A stretch of DNA of 23,687 bases from a virus. The stretch lies in the IMG/VR virus record IMGVR_UViG_3300031851_000188, positions 1-23,687 of that record; one strand, written 5' to 3'. Every line of letters starts with the position of its first letter. Position 1 is the stretch's first letter. This document shows positions 5,694 through 23,687 of this stretch, in pieces. The position numbers and the translations under genes were made by a program. The notes below the pieces were generated by a model. It ran no database searches, was not told the origin of the DNA, and was given only the letters and a program-made list of their open reading frames with translations.

Positions 5694-5716
5694 GGGGGCA
5701 TTACGCCCCCTTTTTT
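5694..5716 (+). terminator. Rho-independent terminator of the + operon
   Basis: GGGGGC (5694-5699) pairs with GCCCCC (5705-5710) around the five-base loop ATTAC, followed at once by six T (5711-5716). It sits 20 bases after the reductase stop. On the opposite strand no T-run follows the stem, so it should act mainly on + transcription. Its T-run shares bases with the stop codon (5715-5717) of the convergent - strand gene. Confidence 0.93.
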
Positions 5717-7385
5717 ATTCCTCATCATCTCTTGCGGAGACAACCCCTGCTCCCGTAAGTAGACCTCCTCCTGCTACTGTGCCTTGTAGTTTTCTTTTTG
5801 CTGATGTTGCCCTAGCTACGTCAGCTTCTGTTACTGGAGGTCTGGATGCTTTAAAGGCTCTCTTTGTATATGCCTCATTAGTTTCTTTTGAAGTTTTCTT
5901 TATGCCCGTTACTTCTTCAGTTTCTTTAAGTGCTTTCTTAATATTTCTTTTTGTCTTGTTAGTTTTTATTTGTTTGTTATTATACTTAGCACCTGTCTTA
6001 ATTGAAGACTCAATCAGAGGAGAAGCAGTAATTAAACCGTGACCACCCACAGGGTCTTTACCTAAGATATCATGCCCGTCACTTAGCATTGTGTACATCT
6101 TTTCTTTATCAGGATCAACCACAACAAAAGCGTTCATCCCTCCTAGTTCTTTCTGTCTTGAATTGAAAGACTGCTGTGTTACTAAGTAACCTTCAGGCTG
6201 TTTTATATCTGACAGGTTTCTAGCTCCTACTGCGTTTCCTGCTTCATCACTAACTCTTGCCATCTTTATTGCACGAGTGTTCAGTAGTTTATTAAAAGCG
6301 TCTAGGGTTTTCTCTTCTCCTTTGTAAAGTTTTAAACCCTTGGCTGACTTTGCTCTAGCCAATAATAAGGTATCTAACATCTGACTAGGCTGACCACCAA
6401 CCCCTAGCTTTTTCATTAGCTGATAGGCATCTCCGTTTAAAGTAGATGAGACTTGCATAAATTCTACCATGTCTCTACCTTGTAGTTTAGGTACAGCTTT
6501 ATTGCCACCAATCTTATTTAATTTATTAACAGAGCTTAAGTAAGTATCTGTGGCTTTTCCATGAAGCGCCCTGACCACTGGCGCACCTGCTCCTGAAACA
6601 CCAATAGATTCTACGTAACCTATGTTCTTATCTACGGACGGGTCTTTAATCTGATACTCATATCTACCCTTGGGGTTTGAGACATGAGGCCCATCAGTCA
6701 AATGCTTAGTAGCTCGTTCAACAATAGAATCAGGAATAGTACCTGAAGTTCTAAAGCCCTGACCAACAGCAGAAGACAAGGTAGCTACGTCTTCTCTAGG
6801 AATACGAGAATCTAAGTAGTTAAGACCTACAATACTTTTCTCAAGCAGTGTGTCTTCAGGTGCGTCAAGCTGACGGTTGATAGAGATGGCTGTCTTTTCT
6901 GCGTCCTGTCCTACATCGCTCATCCAATCGTCTATCTTTGTATCAGACATTCCCACAACTCTACGCTTTGCTACAGCCTGTGGATCAATGCTTTCTTTAA
7001 TTGCAGGTACGATAGCTTTTGTATACTCTTTACCAAAGTTAATCGCACCTTTTATTGGGTTAGTGTAGAATTCAGGGATTCGCGTAGGTACGTTTTGTGC
7101 TGCTTTGTTAGCCAGACTACCTGCACTCGACAGCATTCCTCTAACGGGACGTACAGCCATTCCTGCAAACGGTATAGCAGAGGCATAACCTAGACCTGCC
7201 ATAAGGTAGTCACCCTGCTGTCGTGCTTGCTCTCCTTCTGCAACACCTTTAACATCTCCAATAATAGGAGTAAAGTCTATTAGAGTTTCACCCATAGATG
7301 CTGCAAAATCTTTCTGTTCTTCAGGAGACATTGTAGCTAGTGCCTGACCTAAGCCAGAACTTGTACCACCTAAGTAACTTGACAT
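5715..7385 (-). CDS. Putative virion/ejection-associated protein (556 residues)
   Basis: Last gene of the late - strand operon, coupled to the 1015-residue gene by a TAATG overlap. No catalytic domain recognised. The N-terminus has a Gly/Ala-rich hydrophobic stretch (about 60-85, GYASAIPFAGMAVRP) preceded by TLIDFTPIIGDVKGVAEG, a pattern I associate with end-of-operon internal proteins of marine podophages. Residues about 417-460 hold VVVDPDKEKMYTMLSDG and GGHGLITASP; 461-516 is strongly basic (many Lys), and the C-terminus has a Gly-rich hydrophobic patch (GTVAGGGLLTGAG) before an acidic tail. Its position after nozzle and ejection-type genes suggests a protein packed in the capsid. Function is inferred from context only. 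The stop codon lies inside the T-run of the convergent terminator. Confidence 0.75.
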   Translation of the reverse strand: MSSYLGGTSSGLGQALATMSPEEQKDFAASMGETLIDFTPIIGDVKGVAEGEQARQQGDYLMAGLGYASAIPFAGMAVRPVRGMLSSAGSLANKAAQNVPTRIPEFYTNPIKGAINFGKEYTKAIVPAIKESIDPQAVAKRRVVGMSDTKIDDWMSDVGQDAEKTAISINRQLDAPEDTLLEKSIVGLNYLDSRIPREDVATLSSAVGQGFRTSGTIPDSIVERATKHLTDGPHVSNPKGRYEYQIKDPSVDKNIGYVESIGVSGAGAPVVRALHGKATDTYLSSVNKLNKIGGNKAVPKLQGRDMVEFMQVSSTLNGDAYQLMKKLGVGGQPSQMLDTLLLARAKSAKGLKLYKGEEKTLDAFNKLLNTRAIKMARVSDEAGNAVGARNLSDIKQPEGYLVTQQSFNSRQKELGGMNAFVVVDPDKEKMYTMLSDGHDILGKDPVGGHGLITASPLIESSIKTGAKYNNKQIKTNKTKRNIKKALKETEEVTGIKKTSKETNEAYTKRAFKASRPPVTEADVARATSAKRKLQGTVAGGGLLTGAGVVSARDDEE

Positions 7386-10300
7386 TATTTCCTACCTAAT
7401 AGTTTGTCTCTGTTGTATTCTTCTGCTCCACCTAACAGGTGACTATAAGTTATTTCACCAACTACAGGAACAGGTTTAACTAACTTTTCAAAGTCAGGAT
7501 CTTCTTCAGTAAGTTCAAGAGCGCCTGAGAAAGCTGCATCAATAATAGGAGCAGCGGGAGTTACCATGTTGCTTATGAATCCAGTAGCGTCTCCCCTGCT
7601 TAGATATTTTTCTGTAGCATACTTACCAAAACCAAAGACACCTAACAACGCCCACATTGCTCTATCAGGCAGTTCTTCAGGATCAACCTCTCTGCCTTTC
7701 AGAATGTCTTTCATTACCCCTGTGCCAGTATTGGCTACGGTTAAGTAACCTCCTAGTAAAGCAGCGTTTTTAGCCGCTGTTACTTTGTTACCTTTGCTCC
7801 ACTCTTGTACAATGTTTCTACGTACAATATCATACTGCTTCAAAGTAAAGGACTTTAGCATATACAGGATACGTCCGTTAGGGTTGTTCAGATACATAGG
7901 AGGCATTTCACTTAAAGCAATAGGCTGAACATCTGCAAGAGCATTAAAAGTAAATAGCTTGACATTCTCTGTTATATCTCCCGCTTTAAGGTCACTAACT
8001 AAAGAATCAATTTCGTTGCCGTACACACCCCCATGTTTCTTTCTAAAGGCTGCTTCTCCTTTAGCTGTACGTACCTGACCTTTGGCTTGTCTAAAGGCAG
8101 CGTTAATTAAAGTCTCTTTACCTAACTTGTCTGTCCATTTAAATAAACTTAGTCCCATCGCTTTGTCAAGTAAACGAGCAGTTGTACGAGAGTCAGCATT
8201 AGTGATTTCAGTAGCCACTCTAGCGACTCCAAGGTCTATAATGCTTAAATTTTTAGTACCAAACATTGAGGCAAGAGTATTACGCAATCCGTATAAAGAA
8301 GCTGAGATAGCGGGGTCTGCAAGCTGAGTGATTGCTGAGAAAGGATTAGCAATAGTACCCATGTATCCTAAGTCTTTAACAGTAGCGTTAAGTTTACTAG
8401 CGGACTGTTCACCACCTACAAATCTAGTCTTTAGCAATTCAATTAGTTTGTCTTGCTCATCAGCAGTAAGCTGCTTAGTTTTAATCAAGTCTTCTACATA
8501 CTTAGTAACGGACTGATCGACATCTATGACACCATCATTAGTCTTTTTGGTAGACCCTTTAAAGAACTTAGATACTTCAATGTCGTTGACAGCATTACGT
8601 ATGTACATCGACAATGCTTCTTCAGGTTCAGCATAGTAAGGCAGGTTAGAATCTGTCAGTGTTAGTTGACGTTGTTGGGCAAAGGAAGGCTTACCTTTAC
8701 CATCGTGTCGATACCCACGTAACACGCCTTCAATTACTTTATCTTTTTCATTCGGCTTTAAGGTTCTGCCTTTAAGTTTCTCAGCCTTGCGTAATTGCTC
8801 AGAGATAACACCTTGGTATTCTGCTCCTAAATCTTTACGTAGCCCACGGTAATCTTTAACAAGACGGGGGAAGTAGTTTTCAATTAGCTCAAAGCTACGG
8901 CCATTTTCTCGTAGTTCTTCACCTAAGTTCTTTAGCAGAGGAACTACTGTATCAGTAAACTCACGAGCCATTGTTGGACTTACGTTCTTCATCAGCTTAG
9001 TGGCTTCATCAAAACGTCCGTTATACAGTGCCTTAGATATTTGGTTCTTAATATTCTTAGGAGCAGACTGTAGGCTAATAAGAAAAGGCTCTACCTCTGC
9101 TGTCTTAGCATAAGTCCTGCTAGCCATGCTATATTCAGTATGTCTTAAACGTCCGAACACTCCTTCATCAATGTTCCTAACCTGAGTGCTTAAGATTCCT
9201 GCTAACCTATCCAAGCCTTCCATGTACTGACGGCTGACAGCACTGTCTTCCACTAGTGCCTTGTCTACTGCTTTAGCTGCATTGGTTGCAGACCTGTGTA
9301 CGTTTAATCTTGTACCTGTTTTCTCAAGAGCCACTGCTACTTCTTGTGCATCTAACCCTGCATCTTTAAGGATCTGCCAAGGATTGTCAGGAGCTACACC
9401 ATCAGCTACTGCAATGTCTAGTTCAGCCTGTGCTTTCTTTACTATCTTATCAGCTTTCTTAGCTGCTACTTTGTTGACAATAGTTTTAGATACATAACCA
9501 ATACCTGAAACAAATACCAAACCTGCGGCTGACATCTTTGCAGCTTTTTCAGGATCAACAACTCCTTTCTCTGACAAATCTTCAAGGGCTGACATACCAC
9601 CAAACAAAGCAGCACCTCTGAGTCCTTGCTGTACAAGAGTACGCCCCATAGCTAACCCTGCTGTGGGATCAGTCAGTTGATTCATTATTACACCGCTAAC
9701 AGCAGCGGCACTTGTATCGTCTTCTACAAAGAAGTGACCGTACTTTTCTTGTAATGCTCTATCTCTCTGAAGAAGTCTAGCTTGTCTTCGTTGGTCAGGA
9801 GTCATGTCCATGTAGCCCTCAACTTCAAACAGTTCATCAGGATCTGCGTAGTCTACAAGGTGGTCTTGTCCTGCTAAGTAGTGAGGACGTCCCGCTGTTA
9901 GGCGATCAAACTGACGGAAGGGGAAGTACGTCTCAAGAATATTGCTAGCACGTTCAAGAGGCTTCTCGTCTTTGTCAACGGAATAACGCCACTGCTTCCA
10001 TGAGTCAGCCGCGCCTGAGTCTATTATAGTATCTCCAAACACACGAGAACCTACGCCCACATTATTATCTTGTAGGAACTTGGAGTTGTCAATATCTTCT
10101 TGAGTAATAAGTCTACCGCCCAGTTGAGCGTCTTCAGGCGTAGAGTAAACGCGAATAATTTCGTTTCCTTTTACTCTGTCTCCCGCAACAATACCATTTT
10201 CAGTTAAGAAAGGAGACTTCCTAATCTCTTCTAAAGTTAAAGCCCTGCCTTCTTCAGTAGTACGTGCGGCTACAGCTTGACGTTCTTCTTCTATCGCTTC

Positions 10301-10432
10301 TTCTACACGAGACTGTCTTTCCTCTGCTTGAGACTCAGCTACCGCTACCATGCGTGGATTAAAACCTTTAGACTCTGAGTCAGGATTAATACTGCTATCA
10401 CCACCGCTACGGGGGTTAGGATTAAGTGCCAT
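7385..10432 (-). CDS. Large internal virion / ejection-type protein (1015 residues)
   Basis: The largest gene in the window, in the position where T7-like phages keep their internal core proteins (gp15/gp16). No lytic transglycosylase motif is evident, unlike T7 gp16. The N-terminus is polar and Glu/Arg-rich (30-60) and contains a duplicated segment: LTLEEIRKSPFLTENG (65-80) plus DRVKGNEII (85-93), repeated as LITQEDIDNSKFLQDNN (108-124) plus SRVFGDTII (129-137). Hydrophobic stretches near 265-325 (RGAALFGGMSALEDL, AAGLVFVSGIGYVSK) and in the C-terminal part (AALLGGYLTVANTGTGV, WALLGVFGFGKYA) could insert in membrane during ejection. The C-terminal part also has YMLKSFTLKQYDIVRRNIV, which resembles conserved ends of large phage virion proteins. 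Start ATG lies seven bases after the stop of the upstream gene. Role is inferred from size, position and composition. Confidence 0.8.
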   Translation of the reverse strand: MALNPNPRSGGDSSINPDSESKGFNPRMVAVAESQAEERQSRVEEAIEEERQAVAARTTEEGRALTLEEIRKSPFLTENGIVAGDRVKGNEIIRVYSTPEDAQLGGRLITQEDIDNSKFLQDNNVGVGSRVFGDTIIDSGAADSWKQWRYSVDKDEKPLERASNILETYFPFRQFDRLTAGRPHYLAGQDHLVDYADPDELFEVEGYMDMTPDQRRQARLLQRDRALQEKYGHFFVEDDTSAAAVSGVIMNQLTDPTAGLAMGRTLVQQGLRGAALFGGMSALEDLSEKGVVDPEKAAKMSAAGLVFVSGIGYVSKTIVNKVAAKKADKIVKKAQAELDIAVADGVAPDNPWQILKDAGLDAQEVAVALEKTGTRLNVHRSATNAAKAVDKALVEDSAVSRQYMEGLDRLAGILSTQVRNIDEGVFGRLRHTEYSMASRTYAKTAEVEPFLISLQSAPKNIKNQISKALYNGRFDEATKLMKNVSPTMAREFTDTVVPLLKNLGEELRENGRSFELIENYFPRLVKDYRGLRKDLGAEYQGVISEQLRKAEKLKGRTLKPNEKDKVIEGVLRGYRHDGKGKPSFAQQRQLTLTDSNLPYYAEPEEALSMYIRNAVNDIEVSKFFKGSTKKTNDGVIDVDQSVTKYVEDLIKTKQLTADEQDKLIELLKTRFVGGEQSASKLNATVKDLGYMGTIANPFSAITQLADPAISASLYGLRNTLASMFGTKNLSIIDLGVARVATEITNADSRTTARLLDKAMGLSLFKWTDKLGKETLINAAFRQAKGQVRTAKGEAAFRKKHGGVYGNEIDSLVSDLKAGDITENVKLFTFNALADVQPIALSEMPPMYLNNPNGRILYMLKSFTLKQYDIVRRNIVQEWSKGNKVTAAKNAALLGGYLTVANTGTGVMKDILKGREVDPEELPDRAMWALLGVFGFGKYATEKYLSRGDATGFISNMVTPAAPIIDAAFSGALELTEEDPDFEKLVKPVPVVGEITYSHLLGGAEEYNRDKLLGRK

Positions 10433-13845: not shown

Positions 13846-14489
13846 TAAGAATACCAGATAGTTTCTTCAGGATGTTGTGACGCATCAATAGCGATAGCAT
13901 CAGCCAAGGTGTTATCTGCAAGTGCGAACAACTCTGCTGCACTAGTGCCTCCAGTTTCACCACGCTCTCTAGCACCTAATGCAGTGGCTAGTTGTATGAC
14001 AGGTGATGCAGGTGCAAGCAAAGTATCTGAGTCTACTGTAAAATCTTCTGTTCGCTTAACCACGTTAAAACGTAACTGATACACAGCATCAGGCTTTGGA
14101 TATATATCAACAGCATAGTCTCCTGCACTGCTGACACCGTTTACGCTATAATACTGTGGAGAACTTGACGGAGGATCTTGATTTAAAAATACATTATTCA
14201 TCCAGTGTGAACCACGGTATTGCATAAAAACATTGGATGTATCATTAACAACATCTAATATTTTCATTTTACTTTTTGATCCAGTAAGTACGTAATTAAA
14301 AATACCTGCTGTAGTAGATACAGTAAGTGTAGTACGTAATGCAGTCCAATCGTAAGAGTCTTCTACGGTGCGTTTAGCATCATTGACAAACTCACCAATA
14401 AGTTTAGAGTAGGCGTTCTGACCAACAGTGGTCACTTCATCCTCCCTCAGTCTGCGTAATACGCTGTTTACCAGTTGTAAGTAAGTCAT
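13845..14489 (-). CDS. Putative head-tail adaptor (T7 tail tubular protein A / gp11-like)
   Basis: 214-residue protein with the usual layout of short-tail adaptor proteins: an N-terminal helical hairpin (LVNSVLRRLREDEV, LIGEFVNDAKRTVEDSYDWT), a central beta part, and a C-terminal helix pair (PVIQLATALGARERGET, AELFALADNTLADAIAI) ending HPEETIWYS. Family knowledge: twelve copies sit beneath the portal and join it to the nozzle. Place directly before the nozzle gene supports this. TAATG overlaps join it to both neighbours. Similarity to T7 gp11 is in architecture and order, not in obvious identity. Confidence 0.8.
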   Translation of the reverse strand: MTYLQLVNSVLRRLREDEVTTVGQNAYSKLIGEFVNDAKRTVEDSYDWTALRTTLTVSTTAGIFNYVLTGSKSKMKILDVVNDTSNVFMQYRGSHWMNNVFLNQDPPSSSPQYYSVNGVSSAGDYAVDIYPKPDAVYQLRFNVVKRTEDFTVDSDTLLAPASPVIQLATALGARERGETGGTSAAELFALADNTLADAIAIDASQHPEETIWYS

Positions 14490-16291
14490 TAGAAATTGTA
14501 ACTCCGTGGTTTAGCTTCGTAAATAGTGTTTTCAAAGAAGTTGTCATAGTCTGGTTCGTAGTCTAACTGTGGCGCAGACTCTGGGTAAAACAACTCTAGT
14601 TCTTCTCCTTGTGACTCTATAGGATAATCGCTGATGCCTATCTCTGTTTCAAACTGAAATAGCTCATCATTAAACAAGCTGTCTGTTGTGCGTGTAGGTG
14701 ATGGTATAAAGTCTTGACCTGTGTCTGACATAAGAGAAGGGCTTAGATCAAAAGGTAAGTCCATACTAGGTAGGTCAATACTAGGTAAGTCAATGTCTGG
14801 TAGAGCCTGTCTAATGGCTGTATCTAAAGCAGACAGAGCGTCACCAACAGGCTGTGTTACTGCATCATCAAGAGCCTTCGCTACTTCTCTAGTAGGTTGT
14901 ATAACAGATTTGTCTACAGCTTTACCACCTGCTCTAACAACATCTTCAGTTGTTCTACCTGCTTCTCTAATGGCTTCTTCTATAGGGTCTAAGGCACTAG
15001 TGTCTATGGCTGACACAGACTTTTTAACAATGTCAGCAACCTCCGTACCTATTTTACCAAGGGGACGTACAGCGTTTCTGACAATATCTTCAACAATACC
15101 TAAGTCAATATCTTTACCGTCTAAGTTTAGACCACCGCCTTCGTCAATATACTTACCTAGTCCTGCTAGTAAAGCATCATCAAACTCAGCACCGCCCGCT
15201 ACTTTATCTACTACCTTAACTAAACCTGCTTTAACATCGTCAGCTTGAAACCTACCTAATAAGTCTGAACCTTGAGGAACGTCAGCAAACGCTTTGTCAA
15301 GTGCTTCATTACCAAACTTACTTACAATAAAACTTTTAGGATCGCCTGTTGCCGCTGCACTTAATAAACCTACAGTATCTGTATAGCCTAATCCTGCAAT
15401 GCCTTTACCTACTGCCTCTACTCCTGTAGCTCCTTGTACTGGTTTAGCTATTATATTTGCACTTTCTAAAGCAGGAACAGCTAAAGAAAGCCAATCACTG
15501 GCGTGTAGTGTTTCTCCTGTAACAGCTTTACCTGCTGCTATTGCAGCCTCAGAATAACCGCCTGACAAGTATCCGGCAGCAACTCTAAAGGGAGCAAAGT
15601 TTAATGCTTTTTCAAAGAAACTAGACTCAGGTGGATTTCCTACCCAAATCAGAGAGTAAGAACCAATAGGAGCTTCTCCTCCACTAATGTCTACATAAGA
15701 GCCTGAGTTCAATCCAAAATTTGGGCCTCGTAACTTTTCAATTTCGTTATACTCATCAGAGTTTCGAAAGTGTCTAAGGTGTGACATAGTGCCGTAACCA
15801 GTGTCAGGCCCTTTCATGAACAGCTTAGACGTATCATAGTCGTAAGGGTAGTCTATTTCAAACTCTTTAACTGTATCTATAAATAAAGGAGGTTTTTCTT
15901 CTTCAATTTTACTGCCAAAAACATCAGCACCTGCTATGTCATCTGCGTAGCCTGCACCACCAGTGCCTGTGATATAACCTCTAAACTCTCCTGAGAAAGC
16001 CTCTTCTTCGTATTCAGCCTCTCTTCTATACTTTTCTCTAGCGTCAGTCCAATTTTTTTGATATTCGCTTGACCCTAAATAGTTAGTATACCAATCTGCC
16101 ATGTTAAATTCAGGTTCAGCCCTAGAACCCATAACTGTGACAGGAGTTGGTATATCAATACTAGGAGAATCTATAGTAGATGCGAAAGGAGTAGCATTTA
16201 AATTTACAACTTCTTCTCTAGCGTCAGCAAAAGCCTGAGCGCGAGTGCGTCTTGCTCTATTAAACGCACCATTTCTTCCCCTTAAAGCCAT
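14489..16291 (-). CDS. Unrecognised virion-type protein with D-L-P-S repeats (600 residues)
   Basis: No family recognised. The N-terminus is basic (RGRNGAFNRARRTRAQAFAD); 50-260 is acidic and aromatic-rich; 260-330 is Ala/Gly-rich and hydrophobic (AAIAAGKAVTG, LSLAVPALESANIIA), and 400-500 is helical with a repeated amphipathic pattern (DDAVTQPVGDALSALDTA). A short tandem repeat IDLPS/IDLPS/MDLPF around 500-515 is encoded by near-identical 15-base units at about 14755-14800. The C-terminus is acidic and aromatic. It sits between the holin gene and the tail adaptor, coupled to both by TAATG overlaps. A structural or ejection role is likely; an endolysin or tail-spike is not supported by any visible motif. 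Confidence 0.72.
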   Translation of the reverse strand: MALRGRNGAFNRARRTRAQAFADAREEVVNLNATPFASTIDSPSIDIPTPVTVMGSRAEPEFNMADWYTNYLGSSEYQKNWTDAREKYRREAEYEEEAFSGEFRGYITGTGGAGYADDIAGADVFGSKIEEEKPPLFIDTVKEFEIDYPYDYDTSKLFMKGPDTGYGTMSHLRHFRNSDEYNEIEKLRGPNFGLNSGSYVDISGGEAPIGSYSLIWVGNPPESSFFEKALNFAPFRVAAGYLSGGYSEAAIAAGKAVTGETLHASDWLSLAVPALESANIIAKPVQGATGVEAVGKGIAGLGYTDTVGLLSAAATGDPKSFIVSKFGNEALDKAFADVPQGSDLLGRFQADDVKAGLVKVVDKVAGGAEFDDALLAGLGKYIDEGGGLNLDGKDIDLGIVEDIVRNAVRPLGKIGTEVADIVKKSVSAIDTSALDPIEEAIREAGRTTEDVVRAGGKAVDKSVIQPTREVAKALDDAVTQPVGDALSALDTAIRQALPDIDLPSIDLPSMDLPFDLSPSLMSDTGQDFIPSPTRTTDSLFNDELFQFETEIGISDYPIESQGEELELFYPESAPQLDYEPDYDNFFENTIYEAKPRSYNF

Positions 16292-19037: not shown

Positions 19038-20384
19038 TTAAGAACCTTTAAGTTCGTCTACTTGTGACTTCAAGTCTTTGATTGATTCAATTAATAATGA
19101 TACAAGCTGATCATATTCGACGTACTTGTAGTTCTCTTCATCGCCTTTCATAAGCATAAGTTGAGCTTCACCAACTGCCTGTGGTAGCACCTTTTCTACT
19201 TCCTGTGCCATTACACCCGCAGAGCGCTTGTCGTCTTTTAAGTAGGTAAACTCGTAGCCGTTTAACTGGCAGACTTTATCGAGAGCGTTCTCTACCTTGT
19301 TGATGTCTTTTTTCAGATTGATGTCAGACGTAGAAGTAGAGTAGGCATAGATGTTACCGTCAGCGTGGAAGTCACCATTGGTGTTCATTAAGAACTCTTC
19401 GGCATCTGCGTTATTTACGCGAAACCTAATCTGGCTAGGCGATTTGATGTACGTGTGACTGTTGTTAGAAAAGTACAAGCGGTTTTTGCTATCACTAGAG
19501 GCGTACCACGTATTAGCTGCAAACGTACCAGAGAATCCACCAGTAGCACCAGTCGGACCTTGTGGGCCAGTAGCACCAGTAGCGCCAGTAGCACCAGTAG
19601 CACCAGTAGCACCATCAGCACCTGCGGGGCCTTGTGGCCCTGCTACAGTAGAGTCTGCTCCGGTAGCACCTTGTGGCCCTGTTGCACCTTGTGGCCCTGT
19701 AGCACCTGTCGGCCCTGCTACAGTAGAGTCAGCACCTGTCGCTCCGGTAGCTCCTTGAGGCCCTGTTGCACCTTGAGGGCCTGTAGCACCTTGAGGGCCT
19801 GTAAGGGCTGTTAGTTGTTCAGATGTAAAGTCGGAGTATACAAAAGCATTACCTTGTGGGCCTGTAGCTCCAGTAGCACCCGTTGGGCCTGTTGCGCCAG
19901 TAGGCCCTGTAGCTCCTGTAGGGCCAGTAAGTGCTGTTAGTTGTTGAGTAGTAAAATCAGAATATACAAAAGCATTACCCTGTGGGCCTTGAGGCCCTGT
20001 AGCTCCTGTAGGCCCTGTAGCTCCTGTGGGTCCTACAGGCCCTTCAACAGTTGAATCAGCCCCTGTAGCACCTGTTGATCCTGTATCTCCTCTAGGAACA
20101 GTTAATACACCTGTGCTACTATTATATGACGCATTAGTTCCCGCAGAGCCAGTAGCTGTAGTTAATGTAAGAATTTGATTTGCAGAATTTGCGGAAGCGG
20201 TTGCACTATTAGCTGCTTGAGTTGCGCTAGTAGCAGCAGCAGCAGAACTAGACGAACTAGCGACAGCACTAGCGGCTGCATCACTTGCTTTCGTAGTTGC
20301 TATGATAGTTTGTTCTGTAACGGCAAGTAACGAGGCATCATTATTAGAATCGCCTGAACCGCCCTCTCCTCTATATATAGCCAT
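19038..20384 (-). CDS. Collagen-like tail fibre with C-terminal peptidase S74 chaperone
   Basis: 448-residue fibre. Residues 1-75 form an Ala/Ser-rich helical stalk (coiled-coil-like) after [12 protein letters not shown]; 99-283 consist of Gly-X-Y collagen-like triplets ([13 protein letters not shown] type) interrupted twice by an identical-looking segment [19 protein letters not shown] (136-154) and [19 protein letters not shown] (178-196); 284-350 is a beta region; 353 to the end is a peptidase S74/intramolecular chaperone with the Ser-Lys dyad S353-D354 and K358 in [12 protein letters not shown], and [15 protein letters not shown]. Family knowledge: the S74 domain trimerises the fibre and then cuts itself off before that Ser. 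The gene begins after a TAGGAGC ribosome-binding site and follows the capsid terminator. Likely host-binding fibre. Confidence 0.92.
19538..20088 (-). repeat. Collagen-type Gly-X-Y repeat tract with nine-base units
   Basis: Coding repeat within the fibre gene, built from near-identical nine-base units (Gly-Ala-Thr and Gly-Pro-Thr/Gln triplets). Within 19560-19612 five almost perfect units follow each other (e.g. TGCTACTGGCGCTACTGG on the coding strand). Such tracts expand and contract by slippage, so fibre length may vary between relatives. Confidence 0.8.
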
Positions 20385-20458: not shown

Positions 20459-21385
20459 TTACTGAACAGCCAATACGAATCCTGCTTCAGGACGCATTAC
20501 TTGACAACCGTAAAGCGTATCAGCAGTGTAGAGAGTACCCAAGAACTCTTGCTTGTACTGGGTCTGTGAGCGAATACCTTGCTGCTCTGCAAGAACATTA
20601 GTGTCCTTGTGGATTAGCTGTGCGCCACGTACACCAGTTTCAATAGTAGGTACGTTAGTAGATACAAACACATCAACGCCATAGAGATTACCAATCTTGC
20701 CAGTCTCTACGCCTTTGCCATTAACAAAGTCAGTAGAAGTGTAGCGATCAATACCCATGATAGCGTTACGCAGTGAAGGAGGAACGATAAAGCTACGTCC
20801 GTCCATAGGAACGTCTGCGTCATCCATCTTCTGAATCAATGCGCGGAACGCACCGTCAGTGAATGCATTAACGTCAGCAGTGCCATCAGCATCGTAGGCT
20901 TCCAAAGCGCCACCCGCAGTGATTTGGAATGCAGCGTTGTGAACGTAGGAAGAACCGTCACCGTTACCGAAAGACTTACCAAGAGCAAACAAATCATCGT
21001 CTACTTGCTTGGCTAGGCCGTAACCTGCGTCACCAGTATAGAACTGACGCAAAGAAGCGAGAGCCTGTACTTCGGTGATGTCTTCAATCATACGAGAGAA
21101 TTCAAAGTGCTTGTTGATGTTGATTAGCACTTCAGACTCAACAGCGTTCTGAATAGTTACAGCAGTGCCTTCGGCTTTGGCGTGAGCCGCACCACGAGTT
21201 GGCTTAGGTACATGGATGGTGTCGCCTTTCTTACCAGTCATGCTCATTTTTTTAACGAGGTTAGCCAGAACAAGATTGCTCTTGTATGCAGCAATTACTT
21301 CGTCACTCCAGATTTCTGGAATAAATTTAGCAGCAGATGTGTTGTCTACTGCACCGCCCATTGCGGGATATACTGAATCAGTCAT
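20459..21385 (-). CDS. Major capsid protein
   Basis: 308-residue HK97-type coat protein of the podovirus class. Recognisable elements are AAKFIPEIWSDEVIAAYKSN (N-arm), KKGDTIHVPKPTRGAAHAKA (E-loop region), NKHFEFSRMIEDITEVQALA (spine helix start), AFRALIQKMDDADVPMDGR with FIVPPSLRNAIMGID (P-domain), and GNLYGVDVFVSTNVPT followed by EFLGTLYTADTLYGCQVM (A-domain). Family knowledge: hexamers and pentamers of this protein form the icosahedral head. It follows the scaffold gene by 21 bases and precedes a terminator. No signs of a proteolytic leader. Confidence 0.94.
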   Translation of the reverse strand: MTDSVYPAMGGAVDNTSAAKFIPEIWSDEVIAAYKSNLVLANLVKKMSMTGKKGDTIHVPKPTRGAAHAKAEGTAVTIQNAVESEVLININKHFEFSRMIEDITEVQALASLRQFYTGDAGYGLAKQVDDDLFALGKSFGNGDGSSYVHNAAFQITAGGALEAYDADGTADVNAFTDGAFRALIQKMDDADVPMDGRSFIVPPSLRNAIMGIDRYTSTDFVNGKGVETGKIGNLYGVDVFVSTNVPTIETGVRGAQLIHKDTNVLAEQQGIRSQTQYKQEFLGTLYTADTLYGCQVMRPEAGFVLAVQ

Positions 21386-21406: not shown

Positions 21407-22198
21407 TTAGTTTCGGACTCTCCCTTCAGCATATGCTTGCATGATTTCATCAGACAAAGACAAATACCTATCAGGATCATCCTGCATTAGTTTAATAATG
21501 TCTGAGCGTCTATAAACTTTGCGAGATGCTGTCTCACCACTTCCCTTTGCACCGCCTGTTGAGGCAGTTTTAACAGCTTCTTTCCTGCTCGCTTTCTCCT
21601 GTGCTACTGTCTGACCAACAGCTTGTTGACGTTCCTTCCATAAACTGAAAAGCTCATCAGCGGCTTCATAGTCATACTGCGTATCCGCTTGTGCAAAGAG
21701 TTGAGTACGAATCTTTGATCCTTTAATCCAATCAACAAACTTACCATCTTGCAGAATCTCTTGCATGTCGGGATGACGTTGTAACAAATGAGACTGCGCT
21801 GTCTGTTGCTTGTACTGCTGTGTTTGTGCTTCAGCAGCTTTGATTGAAGGATGATTCTTAATCGCTCTCTCGACTGCCTTGTCGGGATCAGAGAAAAAGT
21901 CTATATCTTCTTCAGCTTCTTGTGGTGCTTGTGTTGTCGTGTCGAGTTGTGTCTGTATGTAGTCATCAACAACTTTACGTAGCTCCCCTACTTCACTGCT
22001 CTGTCGGCCTAATAACTTCTCAGCCTCTTGGTGCATCCGTACAATATCAGCCGTTGACTTTCCTTTGTACTTGTCAGGGATTTCTTCTTGTTCTTGAGGA
22101 GTTTCCTGTAATTCAGGTTCCTCAGTTACTTGATCTACTACTTCTTCGTTGTTGTCTAGTTCTTCTTCTACTGGACGCTCGTCTATTAGTGTTGCCAT
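21407..22198 (-). CDS. Capsid assembly scaffolding protein
   Basis: 263-residue acidic, helical protein typical of podovirus scaffolds: very acidic N-terminus (VEEELDNNEEVVDQVTEEPE), conserved-looking PDKYKGKSTADIVRMHQEAE then KLLGRQSSEVGELRKVVDDY, and a C-terminus rich in Arg/Lys/Ser (KASRKEAVKTAS, ETASRKVYRRSDIIKLMQDD) which in such proteins binds the coat. Located directly before the coat gene. The start has a GGAG Shine-Dalgarno seven bases upstream. Expected to be lost from the mature head. Confidence comes from composition, motifs and place. Confidence 0.9.
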   Translation of the reverse strand: MATLIDERPVEEELDNNEEVVDQVTEEPELQETPQEQEEIPDKYKGKSTADIVRMHQEAEKLLGRQSSEVGELRKVVDDYIQTQLDTTTQAPQEAEEDIDFFSDPDKAVERAIKNHPSIKAAEAQTQQYKQQTAQSHLLQRHPDMQEILQDGKFVDWIKGSKIRTQLFAQADTQYDYEAADELFSLWKERQQAVGQTVAQEKASRKEAVKTASTGGAKGSGETASRKVYRRSDIIKLMQDDPDRYLSLSDEIMQAYAEGRVRN

Positions 22199-22249: not shown

Positions 22250-22480
22250 TTAGGAGTTAGCCTTACGCTCTTGTTGTAGCTTCTGCGCTCTATTCCTCTC
22301 CCACTGTCTAGTTGCACCTAAAAAATCACCAGACAGAGGGTCTAACTTGGAACGCACAGGACTTACAATTCTTTGTGCTATCTTGTCACAGTCTAAACAC
22401 GGTATGTGTGTACATTCAGAATCAACTAGTCTTTCGTTGATGTGACCCTGATCACACTTAAAGTCAACCAAGATACGCAT
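22250..22480 (-). CDS. FmdB-like zinc-ribbon protein (76 residues)
   Basis: Small Cys-rich protein: C9, H13, C23 and C28-x2-C31, with CLDCDKIAQRIVSPVRSK downstream, as in zinc ribbons of the FmdB/CxxC_CxxC_SSSS type, followed by a conserved DPLSGDFLGATRQWERNR and a basic tail. The first knuckle is C-x3-H rather than the usual C-x2-C. It lies in the head operon between the 81-residue protein and the scaffold and is coupled to the former by a TAATG overlap. Role unknown: regulation or a head-packaging accessory are possible. Zinc binding is inferred from spacing. Confidence 0.82.
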   Translation of the reverse strand: MRILVDFKCDQGHINERLVDSECTHIPCLDCDKIAQRIVSPVRSKLDPLSGDFLGATRQWERNRAQKLQQERKANS

Positions 22481-22725
22481 TACTCTTGTGCATCTTCTAG
22501 TTGTTGTTGTTCAGCCGTGTCAAGCTGTGCTTCTAGATTAAGTATATTAGCTATGATTGAAAGTTGGCCTTTACGAAAGTGTAGGTCTTCCACATCTTTA
22601 GTTAATTCTACTGAGTTAATTAGTACCGCATTAGAGTTCAGGTCTTCTAACAGTTGTTTCCAACCTTCTGAACGAAACATATCTCTCATGTTGCGGTAAT
22701 ATAGTTCTAGCTTAGGGTCAATCAT
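22480..22725 (-). CDS. Hypothetical head-operon protein (81 residues)
   Basis: First gene after the strong promoter at 22774-22802. Begins IDPKLELYYRNMRDMFRSEG, continues WKQLLEDLNSNAVLINSVEL, and ends with a Gln/Glu-rich helix (LDTAEQQQLEDAQE). No recognised domain, no membrane segment. The start codon ATG 22725 has GGAGA at good spacing, and the stop overlaps the zinc-ribbon start by TAATG. Small helical proteins in this place occur in marine podophages between packaging and scaffold genes; function unknown. Confidence 0.8.
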   Translation of the reverse strand: MIDPKLELYYRNMRDMFRSEGWKQLLEDLNSNAVLINSVELTKDVEDLHFRKGQLSIIANILNLEAQLDTAEQQQLEDAQE

Positions 22726-22773: not shown

Positions 22774-22802
22774 ATTATAACATAAAAGCATAAGAAAGTC
22801 AA
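22774..22802 (-). promoter_or_regulatory. Near-consensus sigma-70 promoter of the head operon
   Basis: On the - strand TTGACT (22802-22797), 17-base spacer, TATAAT (22779-22774). One mismatch to consensus, optimal spacing, AT-rich spacer. The start of transcription would fall near 22767, about 42 bases before the ATG of the 81-residue gene. It is followed by the zinc-ribbon, scaffold and capsid genes and ends at the 20423-20446 terminator. Confidence 0.88.
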
Positions 22803-22805
22803 GCA

Positions 22806-22931
22806 TTATTTCTTATTTTTACTTGACTTCTGTGCAGTTTTGTTGTATATAGCGTCCCAGTTGCTAGCAAACTTCTTTTGGTCTGTCTTTCTCTGGGAGC
22901 TACCTTTACCACCGTGGGTCTGACCCTTCAT
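22806..22931 (-). CDS. Tiny basic protein (41 residues), GGKGS type
   Basis: Last of four overlapping basic mini-genes. Reads MKGQTHGGKGSSQRKTDQKK, then FASNWDAIYNKTA and a Lys-rich end. The ATG overlaps the TGA of the 80-residue gene (ATGA). The pattern GGKG-S-x-QR-xTD-x-KKF-xxNWDxI resembles small conserved phage proteins in head regions of marine podophages (recollection, not a database result). Net charge strongly positive. Function unknown. The stop lies four bases before the promoter's -35. Confidence 0.8.
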   Translation of the reverse strand: MKGQTHGGKGSSQRKTDQKKFASNWDAIYNKTAQKSSKNKK

Positions 22932-23170
22932 CGTTTCTTACCTTTATGTAGGCCGTGTTTGGCGTGTTGCTTACCCTTGGCAGTGGCTTCTCTTTTCTTC
23001 TTGTTAGCAGCCGCTAGCTTCTTCTTACCTGCTGCGGTTGACTTTAGTTTCTTTATAGTCTTGGAGGGTGCGTAGACTTCGCCTGTCTCTGATGACTTCT
23101 TACCGCTAGGTGTACGCCACTTCTGCTTAGTCCACTTCTTTAAAGACTTCTGTGATTCCTTTAGTGCCAT
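22928..23170 (-). CDS. Small Lys-rich protein (80 residues), DUF5872-like
   Basis: Very basic protein: MALKESQKSLKKWTKQKWRT, then PSGKKSSETGEVYAPSKTI, a long Lys/Ala stretch (AAGKKKLAAANKKKREA) and a HAKHGLHKGKKR tail. The pattern SLKKWTKQKWRT-SGK recalls the DUF5872 family of small viral proteins (moderate certainty). The start has GGAGG ten bases upstream and overlaps the previous stop by TAATG; the stop overlaps the next gene by ATGA. Its composition suggests a DNA- or RNA-binding or condensing role, an inference only. Confidence 0.83.
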   Translation of the reverse strand: MALKESQKSLKKWTKQKWRTPSGKKSSETGEVYAPSKTIKKLKSTAAGKKKLAAANKKKREATAKGKQHAKHGLHKGKKR

Positions 23171-23349
23171 TACTTATAGCCTCCACCCTTTGCCTTGTAC
23201 TCCTTGGCTAACATCTGAGCTTTCCTAGCAGACCATTGACCTGCCTTACCACCCTTAGTTCCTGCTTTAATTTTATTAAACAAGTTCTTCCGCATGGTAG
23301 GCTTAGTGTAGTTACCTGCTTTATTTACTGTAGACTTTTTAGTTGGCAT
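23170..23349 (-). CDS. Small basic protein (59 residues)
   Basis: Translated from ATG 23349: MPTKKSTVNKAGNYTKPTMR, then KNLFNKIKAGTKGGKAGQWS and ARKAQMLAKEYKAKGGGYK. Strongly basic with Gly-Lys repeats; no membrane segment. It begins one base after the stop of the 33-residue gene and ends in a TAATG overlap with the 80-residue gene. This type of protein recurs beside packaging genes in marine phages, from memory. Function unknown; DNA binding or virion-packed accessory are candidates. Confidence 0.84.
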   Translation of the reverse strand: MPTKKSTVNKAGNYTKPTMRKNLFNKIKAGTKGGKAGQWSARKAQMLAKEYKAKGGGYK

Positions 23350-23350
23350 A

Positions 23351-23452
23351 CTACTTACCTTTCTTAACTGGCTTCTTCTTAGGCTTTGCCGCTGTCTTCT
23401 TCTTTGGTGGTCTGCCTACTTTACTACCGTATGTACCTTTACCGTATGGCAT
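23351..23452 (-). CDS. Micro-protein (33 residues), GKGTYGSKVGRPPKK type
   Basis: Reads MPYGKGTYGSKVGRPPKKKT followed by AAKPKKKPVKKGK. It contains an AT-hook-like GRPPKKK and a KKKPVKK tail, so is likely to bind DNA. A good ribosome-binding site (TAGGAGA) precedes the ATG. The same short motif recurs in other phages' tiny basic proteins, from memory. It opens a chain of four overlapping basic mini-genes. Confidence 0.8.
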   Translation of the reverse strand: MPYGKGTYGSKVGRPPKKKTAAKPKKKPVKKGK

Positions 23453-23488
23453 AATCTTCTCCTACATTAAAGTGTCGTATTTCTGCAT

Positions 23489-23512
23489 TTATATGTACAT
23501 ATAAGTGTACAC
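23489..23512. promoter_or_regulatory. Two adjacent palindromes in the late intergenic region
   Basis: A perfect 16-base palindrome TTATATGTACATATAA (23489-23504) is followed directly by an eight-base palindrome GTGTACAC (23505-23512), in a 91-base non-coding stretch upstream of the basic mini-genes. A TTGACG box on the - strand lies at 23523-23518, but no -10 at usual spacing was found. Operator or start-site function is possible. Confidence 0.55.
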
Positions 23513-23543
23513 GTTTTCGTCAATATGGTGAATCTGTGTAGAC

Positions 23544-23687
23544 TTATAATCCTATTAAGCCCCAACCGTGGTTTGCAATTGCATTGAGAATAATAAAGAT
23601 ACATGTAGCCATATGAGTAAACCACCAAACAGTCCTAATACTAGCGACAGTATTAGCTTGCTTATCTGTCTCACCTATCTTCTCCCC
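23544..23687 (-). CDS. C-terminus of a membrane protein, cut by window edge
   Basis: Open reading frame running in from the right edge for 47 codons to TAA at 23546-23544. The visible end reads QANTVASIRTVWWFTHMATC then IFIILNAIANHGWGLIGL, with a membrane segment of about 20 residues followed by a Gly/Trp-rich tail. Looks like small marine-phage membrane proteins with a conserved R-xx-WWFTH box (from memory). Only this end is inside the window; start and family unknown. Confidence 0.7.
   Translation of the reverse strand, partial: GEKIGETDKQANTVASIRTVWWFTHMATCIFIILNAIANHGWGLIGL

Follow-up and report, generated by a model that had tools for sequence, protein, structure and literature searches.

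Small proteins that are encoded beside the head genes of phages and travel with the DNA, as internal or ejected components of the head, include gp6.7 and gp7.3 of phage T7 and IPI-III of phage T4. The four small basic proteins described here (ORF1-ORF4) are comparable to these only by an analogy of how they might work, and no sequence relation between the two groups was found. A second set of small, basic proteins, DUF6321 (PF19846) and GLYANI (phrog_16028), occurs alone or in fused form next to the family of ORF1 (F1) in marine T7-like phages, but these proteins also have no detected sequence relation to ORF1-ORF4, and are absent from the window. By profile match, ORF2 is a member of phrog_17747 (residues 2-59 on positions 6-63 of 63, E 2.6e-37) and ORF3 of phrog_14910 (residues 1-72 on positions 1-67 of 80, E 1.1e-17), although neither PHROG entry gives a function. 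Other points of comparison are the AT-hook peptides and the giant-virus DUF5872 (PF19197), which has been listed in the haptophyte virus CpV-BQ1 (PMC12085832).

The four genes were proposed in the initial annotation as good candidates for a function not yet described, and this is supported by the finding that no curated family of known function matches any of the products. A literature search returned no record of the pairing of phrog_17747 with phrog_14910, or of a fused cellular form of the two. The papers searched also contained no proteomic record of the ORF1-ORF4 families, and neither DUF6321 nor phage head proteins of a Lys-rich, histone-like kind were mentioned in them. The carriers of these genes, which are either annotated as hypothetical or overlooked, are relatives of highly abundant ocean viruses, that is, phages of the HMO-2011 type, pelagiphages, roseophages, and OM43 phages.

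The block of basic genes in the window

The window, meaning the whole stretch of DNA that was analysed, is an entire virus record of 23,687 bases, from an ocean virus of bacteria. Its DNA polymerase is nearest to those of the HTVC103P-type pelagiphages, and its capsid protein, at low identity, to those of the Pf-WMP3-like cyanopodoviruses. The four genes were confirmed on the minus strand with the positions, lengths, junctions, and Lys-rich composition first assigned to them (Table 1): a one-base gap separates ORF1 from ORF2, while the junction of ORF2 and ORF3 is TAATG, and that of ORF3 and ORF4 is ATGA. All four starts have a Shine-Dalgarno-like sequence (AGGAG in ORF1, AAAGG in ORF2 and ORF4, and GGAGG in ORF3, the last of which sits inside the terminal Gly codons of ORF2), and the coupled translation that had been proposed is supported. 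The products contain 24-36% Lys and have a pI of 10.4-10.8, with net charges of +13, +15, +23, and +9 in ORF1, ORF2, ORF3, and ORF4, respectively.

Table 1. Positions of the basic block and of the neighbouring features in the window.
Feature	Position	Strand	Description
ORF1 (family F1)	23351..23452	(-)	33 aa; MPYGKGTYGSKVGRPPKKK followed by a Lys-rich tail; AT-hook-like GRP core
ORF2 (family F2, phrog_17747)	23170..23349	(-)	59 aa; corresponds to the first half of the two-domain cellular protein
ORF3 (family F3, phrog_14910)	22928..23170	(-)	80 aa; corresponds to the second half of the two-domain cellular protein
ORF4 (family F4)	22806..22931	(-)	41 aa; motif FASNWDAIYNK; optional partner
Promoter-like site, TTGACT-17-TATAAT with TG	22774..22802	(-)	between the block and the head genes
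Small membrane-protein ORF, 5'-cut	23544..23687	(-)	GEKIGETD...; GEKIGETDKQAN...; upstream of ORF1
81-aa acidic ORF	22480..22725	(-)	neighbour; first gene downstream of the promoter
76-aa Cys-rich ORF	22250..22480	(-)	neighbour; possible zinc ribbon, from a reading of the sequence
Head scaffolding protein	21407..22198	(-)	neighbour; phrog_13678 E 5.2e-13, phrog_19777 E 6.6e-6
Major capsid protein	20459..21385	(-)	neighbour; phrog_267 E 6.5e-52; PF19821, PF11651

All four ORFs are genuine genes under strong purifying selection. Comparison with close relatives gives dN/dS values of mostly 0.01-0.2 across the four (below 0.25 in ORF1 and 0.07-0.22 in ORF4), and the pooled pN/pS is 0.21 in ORF1, 0.06 in ORF2, 0.23 in ORF3, and 0.16 in ORF4. 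In the F1 family, there are 1068 changes at the third codon position, versus 353 and 323 at the others. ORF1 and ORF4 are very short and of low-complexity composition, as would be expected of chance Lys-rich ORFs without function, but with dN/dS far below 1 in all four ORFs, conserved overlaps, and homologues in isolates, the probability of this explanation is negligible, and spurious ORFs are ruled out by the dN/dS values and the conservation.

The alignment of 37 ORF2 sequences contains 24 invariant columns, and the DNA of this gene keeps an identity of approximately 69-82% across the phages of Pelagibacter, Roseobacter, Methylophilales, and Puniceispirillum, to which nothing else in the same 3.7-kb stretch aligns. 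Among the carriers of F2 are HMO-2011, CRP-1, and MEP402. Scans of IMG/VR recovered at least 597 relatives of ORF2 and at least 591 of ORF3; ORF1 and ORF4 are too short to be used as sole seeds for a scan of the collection.

The block had been described as a unit of its own, followed by a strong promoter of the head genes, and this arrangement was borne out. The promoter-like site matches the consensus at 11 of 12 positions, and six relatives, two of which are near-identical to the window, have it in the corresponding position, with 11-12 matches in the five that were scored; it is also kept in the relative L003, which has no ORF4. Upstream of ORF1, there is no promoter-like site with more than 8 of the 12 matches. 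Given a site after ORF4 and nothing comparable before ORF1, the block lies outside the head promoter, and the timing of its expression may thus differ from that of the head genes. An imperfect inverted repeat, TGTACacttatatGTACA, at 23470-23520, upstream of ORF1, is a possible operator. In L024 and L035, a small membrane protein similar to that encoded at the end of the window also lies close to the basic genes.

The ORF2-ORF3 pair and its two-domain cellular form

Bacterial genomes scanned with the ORF2 alignment yielded cellular proteins in which an ORF2-like and an ORF3-like domain are joined in one chain, whereas these domains are split over two overlapping ORFs in the window. Fusions in the order ORF2-ORF3 are found in Fibrella, Spirosoma, Acidobacteriaceae, Pyrinomonadaceae, Verrucomicrobia, Myxococcus, Bdellovibrionales, and Chitinivibrionales, so that the carriers include Bacteroidota, Acidobacteriota, and Myxococcota. 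The reverse order, ORF3-ORF2, is encoded by a 138-142-aa gene on some SAR11 chromosomes (L239, L254, and L261, in contigs of up to 521 kb), where it is preceded by a short-chain dehydrogenase gene. In the hhalign comparisons, the bacterial fusion aligns by its first part with phage ORF2 (E 1e-25) and by its second with ORF3 (E 9e-16), while both ORFs align with the SAR11 fusion in the reversed order (ORF2, E 7e-25; ORF3, E 3e-29). These alignments identify ORF2 and ORF3 as the split halves of a single two-domain cellular protein, which is found fused in both orders.

Among the findings, it is this relation that is new and testable, and with a one-piece homologue in a culturable bacterium, a question on uncultured phages can be addressed by straightforward biochemistry. 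It also modifies the initial annotation, which referred to four distinct proteins: there are indeed four separate ORFs, but the description has to be corrected because ORF2 and ORF3 form one protein in other genomes, and the partners of this pair, ORF1 and ORF4, can be exchanged.

In a tree of the ORF2 part, which is based on 46 columns with a midpoint root and gives no direction of transfer, the two types of fusion form separate, supported clades, and the SAR11 fusion groups with the pelagiphage and split SAR11 copies (99/92). That fusion took place at least twice, and in opposite orders, strongly indicates that the halves act jointly, and they probably do so on DNA. The distribution of the fused form in bacteria is sporadic. 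In SAR11, where the gene is accessory, two of 197 genomes have the fusion and four have split, adjacent copies; the fusion is also present in two of the 120 genomes from the order of L258, and in 11 of the 121 from the family of L215. Some of the other matches in the bacterial scan are likely to be phage contigs that were binned with metagenome genomes, and the statements on cellular fusions are based on long contigs or isolates.

The AlphaFold2 model of the bacterial fusion is mostly helical (pLDDT 76.5, pTM 0.50), and its comparison with the PDB revealed no fold relative, the only matches being among predicted viral proteins; the model of the reverse-order SAR11 fusion (pLDDT 49) was discarded as unusable. 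Solved structures included no sequence relative of either ORF1 or the ORF2 profile.

Several of the bacterial ORF2-ORF3 fusions may have the same two-domain layout as DUF5872, being collinear with as many as 100 or so of the 116 positions of its model (E 3.5e-4 to 0.05), although they score only 14.6-21.6 bits against a curated cut-off of 27.5, and the split phage proteins of the window have no match to this family. Given such remote, sub-threshold scores, the best of which is 21.6 bits, the cellular form is not filed in DUF5872, and is a probable distant relative of this giant-virus family, rather than a member of it.

Exchangeable partners around the core pair

ORF2 and ORF3 form a core pair throughout the marine phages. 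In the 133 loci that have both on one strand, ORF2 always precedes ORF3, and the single-base overlap (TAATG) is the commonest arrangement (56/133). Of 80 loci with ORF2, 76 have ORF3 no more than 1.5 kb away, and of 78 loci with ORF3, 72 have ORF2 at such a distance; family patterns matched shuffled sequence almost never. ORF1 and ORF4 are found in about a tenth of the ORF2/ORF3 loci (the ORF4 motif in about 9%), and the exact four-gene set is limited to near relatives, the widely conserved unit being the ORF2-ORF3 pair. A lack of orthologues in conserved order in related genomes had been named as an outcome that would count against the block; both the orthologues and the order were found, above all for ORF2-ORF3, while the order of the full four is conserved in near relatives only.

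The other small basic families around the pair vary, and include F5 (phrog_7595), GLYANI, DUF6321, and F6-F10, which are labels coined in this analysis for the patterns observed. At least six such further families join, swap, or fuse around ORF2-ORF3. Modules of the ORF1 family, for example, are fused with F6 or F9, GLYANI is fused with DUF6321 (phrog_11180 and phrog_28131), and the ORF2 domain (F2) is fused with HNH_3, and with another module in gp63 of HMO-2011.

The AT-hook-like motif that had been noted in the first gene has a GRP core that is invariant in all 26 distinct F1 sequences, which were collected with a pattern that does not require GRP. This core, with its flanking Lys and other basic residues, is what ORF1 has in common with the AT-hook peptides, from which it differs by the lack of a Pfam match and, in most F1 members, of an Arg before the GRP; RGRP is found in some relatives (L030, L122, L175, and L185). 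The search of ORF1 against the Pfam AT-hook and other families produced no match at E 1, which is a weak test with so short a model.

F1 is located among the head genes of marine T7-like phages, where its annotation is usually missing. It lies between the scaffold and capsid genes in CRP-171, SS120-1, Ran, HTVC022P, S-SBP1, and two uncultured relatives, directly after the capsid gene in P-SCSP1a, and directly after the portal gene in HTVC115P. In the published account of the HTVC022P transcriptome (PMC12753301), the temporal classes are described as contiguous, which implies that the F1 gene of this phage (gp30) would be late. Phage P-SCSP1u also carries an F1 ORF, and its shell, resolved at 3.2 A, is formed by the capsid protein alone (PMC10575957). 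It follows that F1 is not an ordered component of the shell in this phage, where a role in the decoration of the capsid is unlikely. In cyanophage P-SCSP1a (L083 3569-3987, minus strand), DUF6321 and GLYANI proteins are encoded between the capsid and adaptor genes, adjoining an unannotated F1 ORF.

Possible roles at packaging and on the host chromosome

The charge of the proteins, the GRP core, and the HNH fusion point, with fair confidence, to the binding of nucleic acid. The composition is similar to that of small, ribosomal-type basic proteins, which would also suit the binding of RNA or ribosomes, as an aid to late translation or through contact with phage RNA, but no RNA-related family was matched, and the companion families are linked to DNA and to head proteins, which makes this role highly improbable.

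The leading interpretation, which falls a little short of being probable, is that the coupled basic modules bind the replicated phage genome at packaging, and that some of them enter the head. Here, ORF2 and ORF3 would act as short, Lys-rich, putative nucleic-acid-binding modules that form one functional unit, made as separate, coupled polypeptides rather than as one fused protein, while the AT-hook-like ORF1 and ORF4 would be optional partners, drawn from a single pool of exchangeable basic modules. The set would be expressed together with the late genes and bind to the replicated phage DNA during packaging, where it may neutralise or condense the DNA, or dock it onto the terminase or procapsid, and part of the set would probably pass into the head along with the DNA. 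If so, the heads would contain genome-associated proteins that are missing from the present structural models.

The late timing, and the action at packaging or within the virion, are less firmly indicated than the binding itself. A packaging or virion role is weakly favoured by the location near terminase and head genes, and by the fusions of companion families with virion proteins. In phages, F2 and F3 adjoin terminase, portal, and lysis genes, with terminase found nearby in 19 of 133 cases, versus eight of 133 in a control of farther genes on the same contigs (p 0.04), a modest difference that led to the rejection of terminase adjacency as proof of packaging. DUF6321, which adjoins F1 in several phages, also forms the end of a cyanomyovirus protein annotated as structural. 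F5, a segment of which lies in the virion-borne portal protein of cyanophage CL131, has a weak match (E 1.9e-6) to phrog_220, "minor head protein and DNA pilot". These links to the virion come through the companion families, however, and not through ORF2-ORF4 themselves, which counts against the packaging role, as do the location of the block outside the head promoter and the composition of the P-SCSP1u shell.

Terminase is the commonest annotated neighbour, and its small subunit adjoins F2 in several loci, which, with the HNH_3-F2 fusion, raises the alternative that the proteins serve the packaging motor or an HNH nuclease as accessory subunits for DNA binding, involved in recognition or cutting at the terminase rather than in coating the genome. 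This is very unlikely, considering that the window contains no terminase, its nearest head genes being those of the scaffold and capsid, that the enrichment of terminase is modest, and that shuffling among many families is a poor fit to a dedicated subunit.

The fused form is kept in bacteria without phages, and the core activity thus need not be packaging. Action on the host chromosome is the main rival to the packaging interpretation, and would involve a set of nucleoid proteins, shared with a cellular nucleoid or stress protein, that displaces or compacts the host DNA, alters host transcription, or protects the phage DNA in the course of infection. This would be consistent with the presence of the same two-domain protein on bacterial chromosomes, where the fused gene adjoins a DUF3140 gene in two unrelated genomes, and once also lies near YflT-like and hemerythrin genes, and with a block that has no share in the head promoter. 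It is nonetheless rather unlikely, given the location of the genes among late or packaging genes in most phages, and of F1 among the head genes, as well as the lack of any Pfam or PHROG match of the ORFs to HU, H-NS, or other nucleoid proteins. If the set does act on the host, it would represent a widespread, unknown take-over function.

A broader form of the packaging interpretation is that marine phages share a kit of at least ten interchangeable basic micro-modules, which would constitute a viral chromatin that coats or condenses the genome in the head. The core of this kit would be a nucleoid protein of two domains, which the phages have in common with bacteria and, as a remote relation, with giant viruses, and which they encode as two separate pieces. 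This broader form is clearly unlikely.

A number of features were also observed outside the block. Three large late ORFs of the window, all on the minus strand (5715-7385, 7385-10432, and 14489-16291; 556, 1015, and 600 aa), have no convincing PHROG match, and a fourth minus-strand ORF (19038-20384) encodes a tail-fibre-like protein that has collagen repeats and, at its C terminus, an S74 endosialidase chaperone domain. In cyanophage CL131, the 1394-aa portal protein (L179 1899-6080), which has been detected in the virions (PMC6293099), holds an F5-like segment at about residues 520-600, and one of the adjacent genes carries the annotation of HU-family DNA-binding protein. The S-P4 protein gp060 (L178 2630-4219), a structural protein (T4 GC0119), looks like a series of small basic modules, the last of which is DUF6321.
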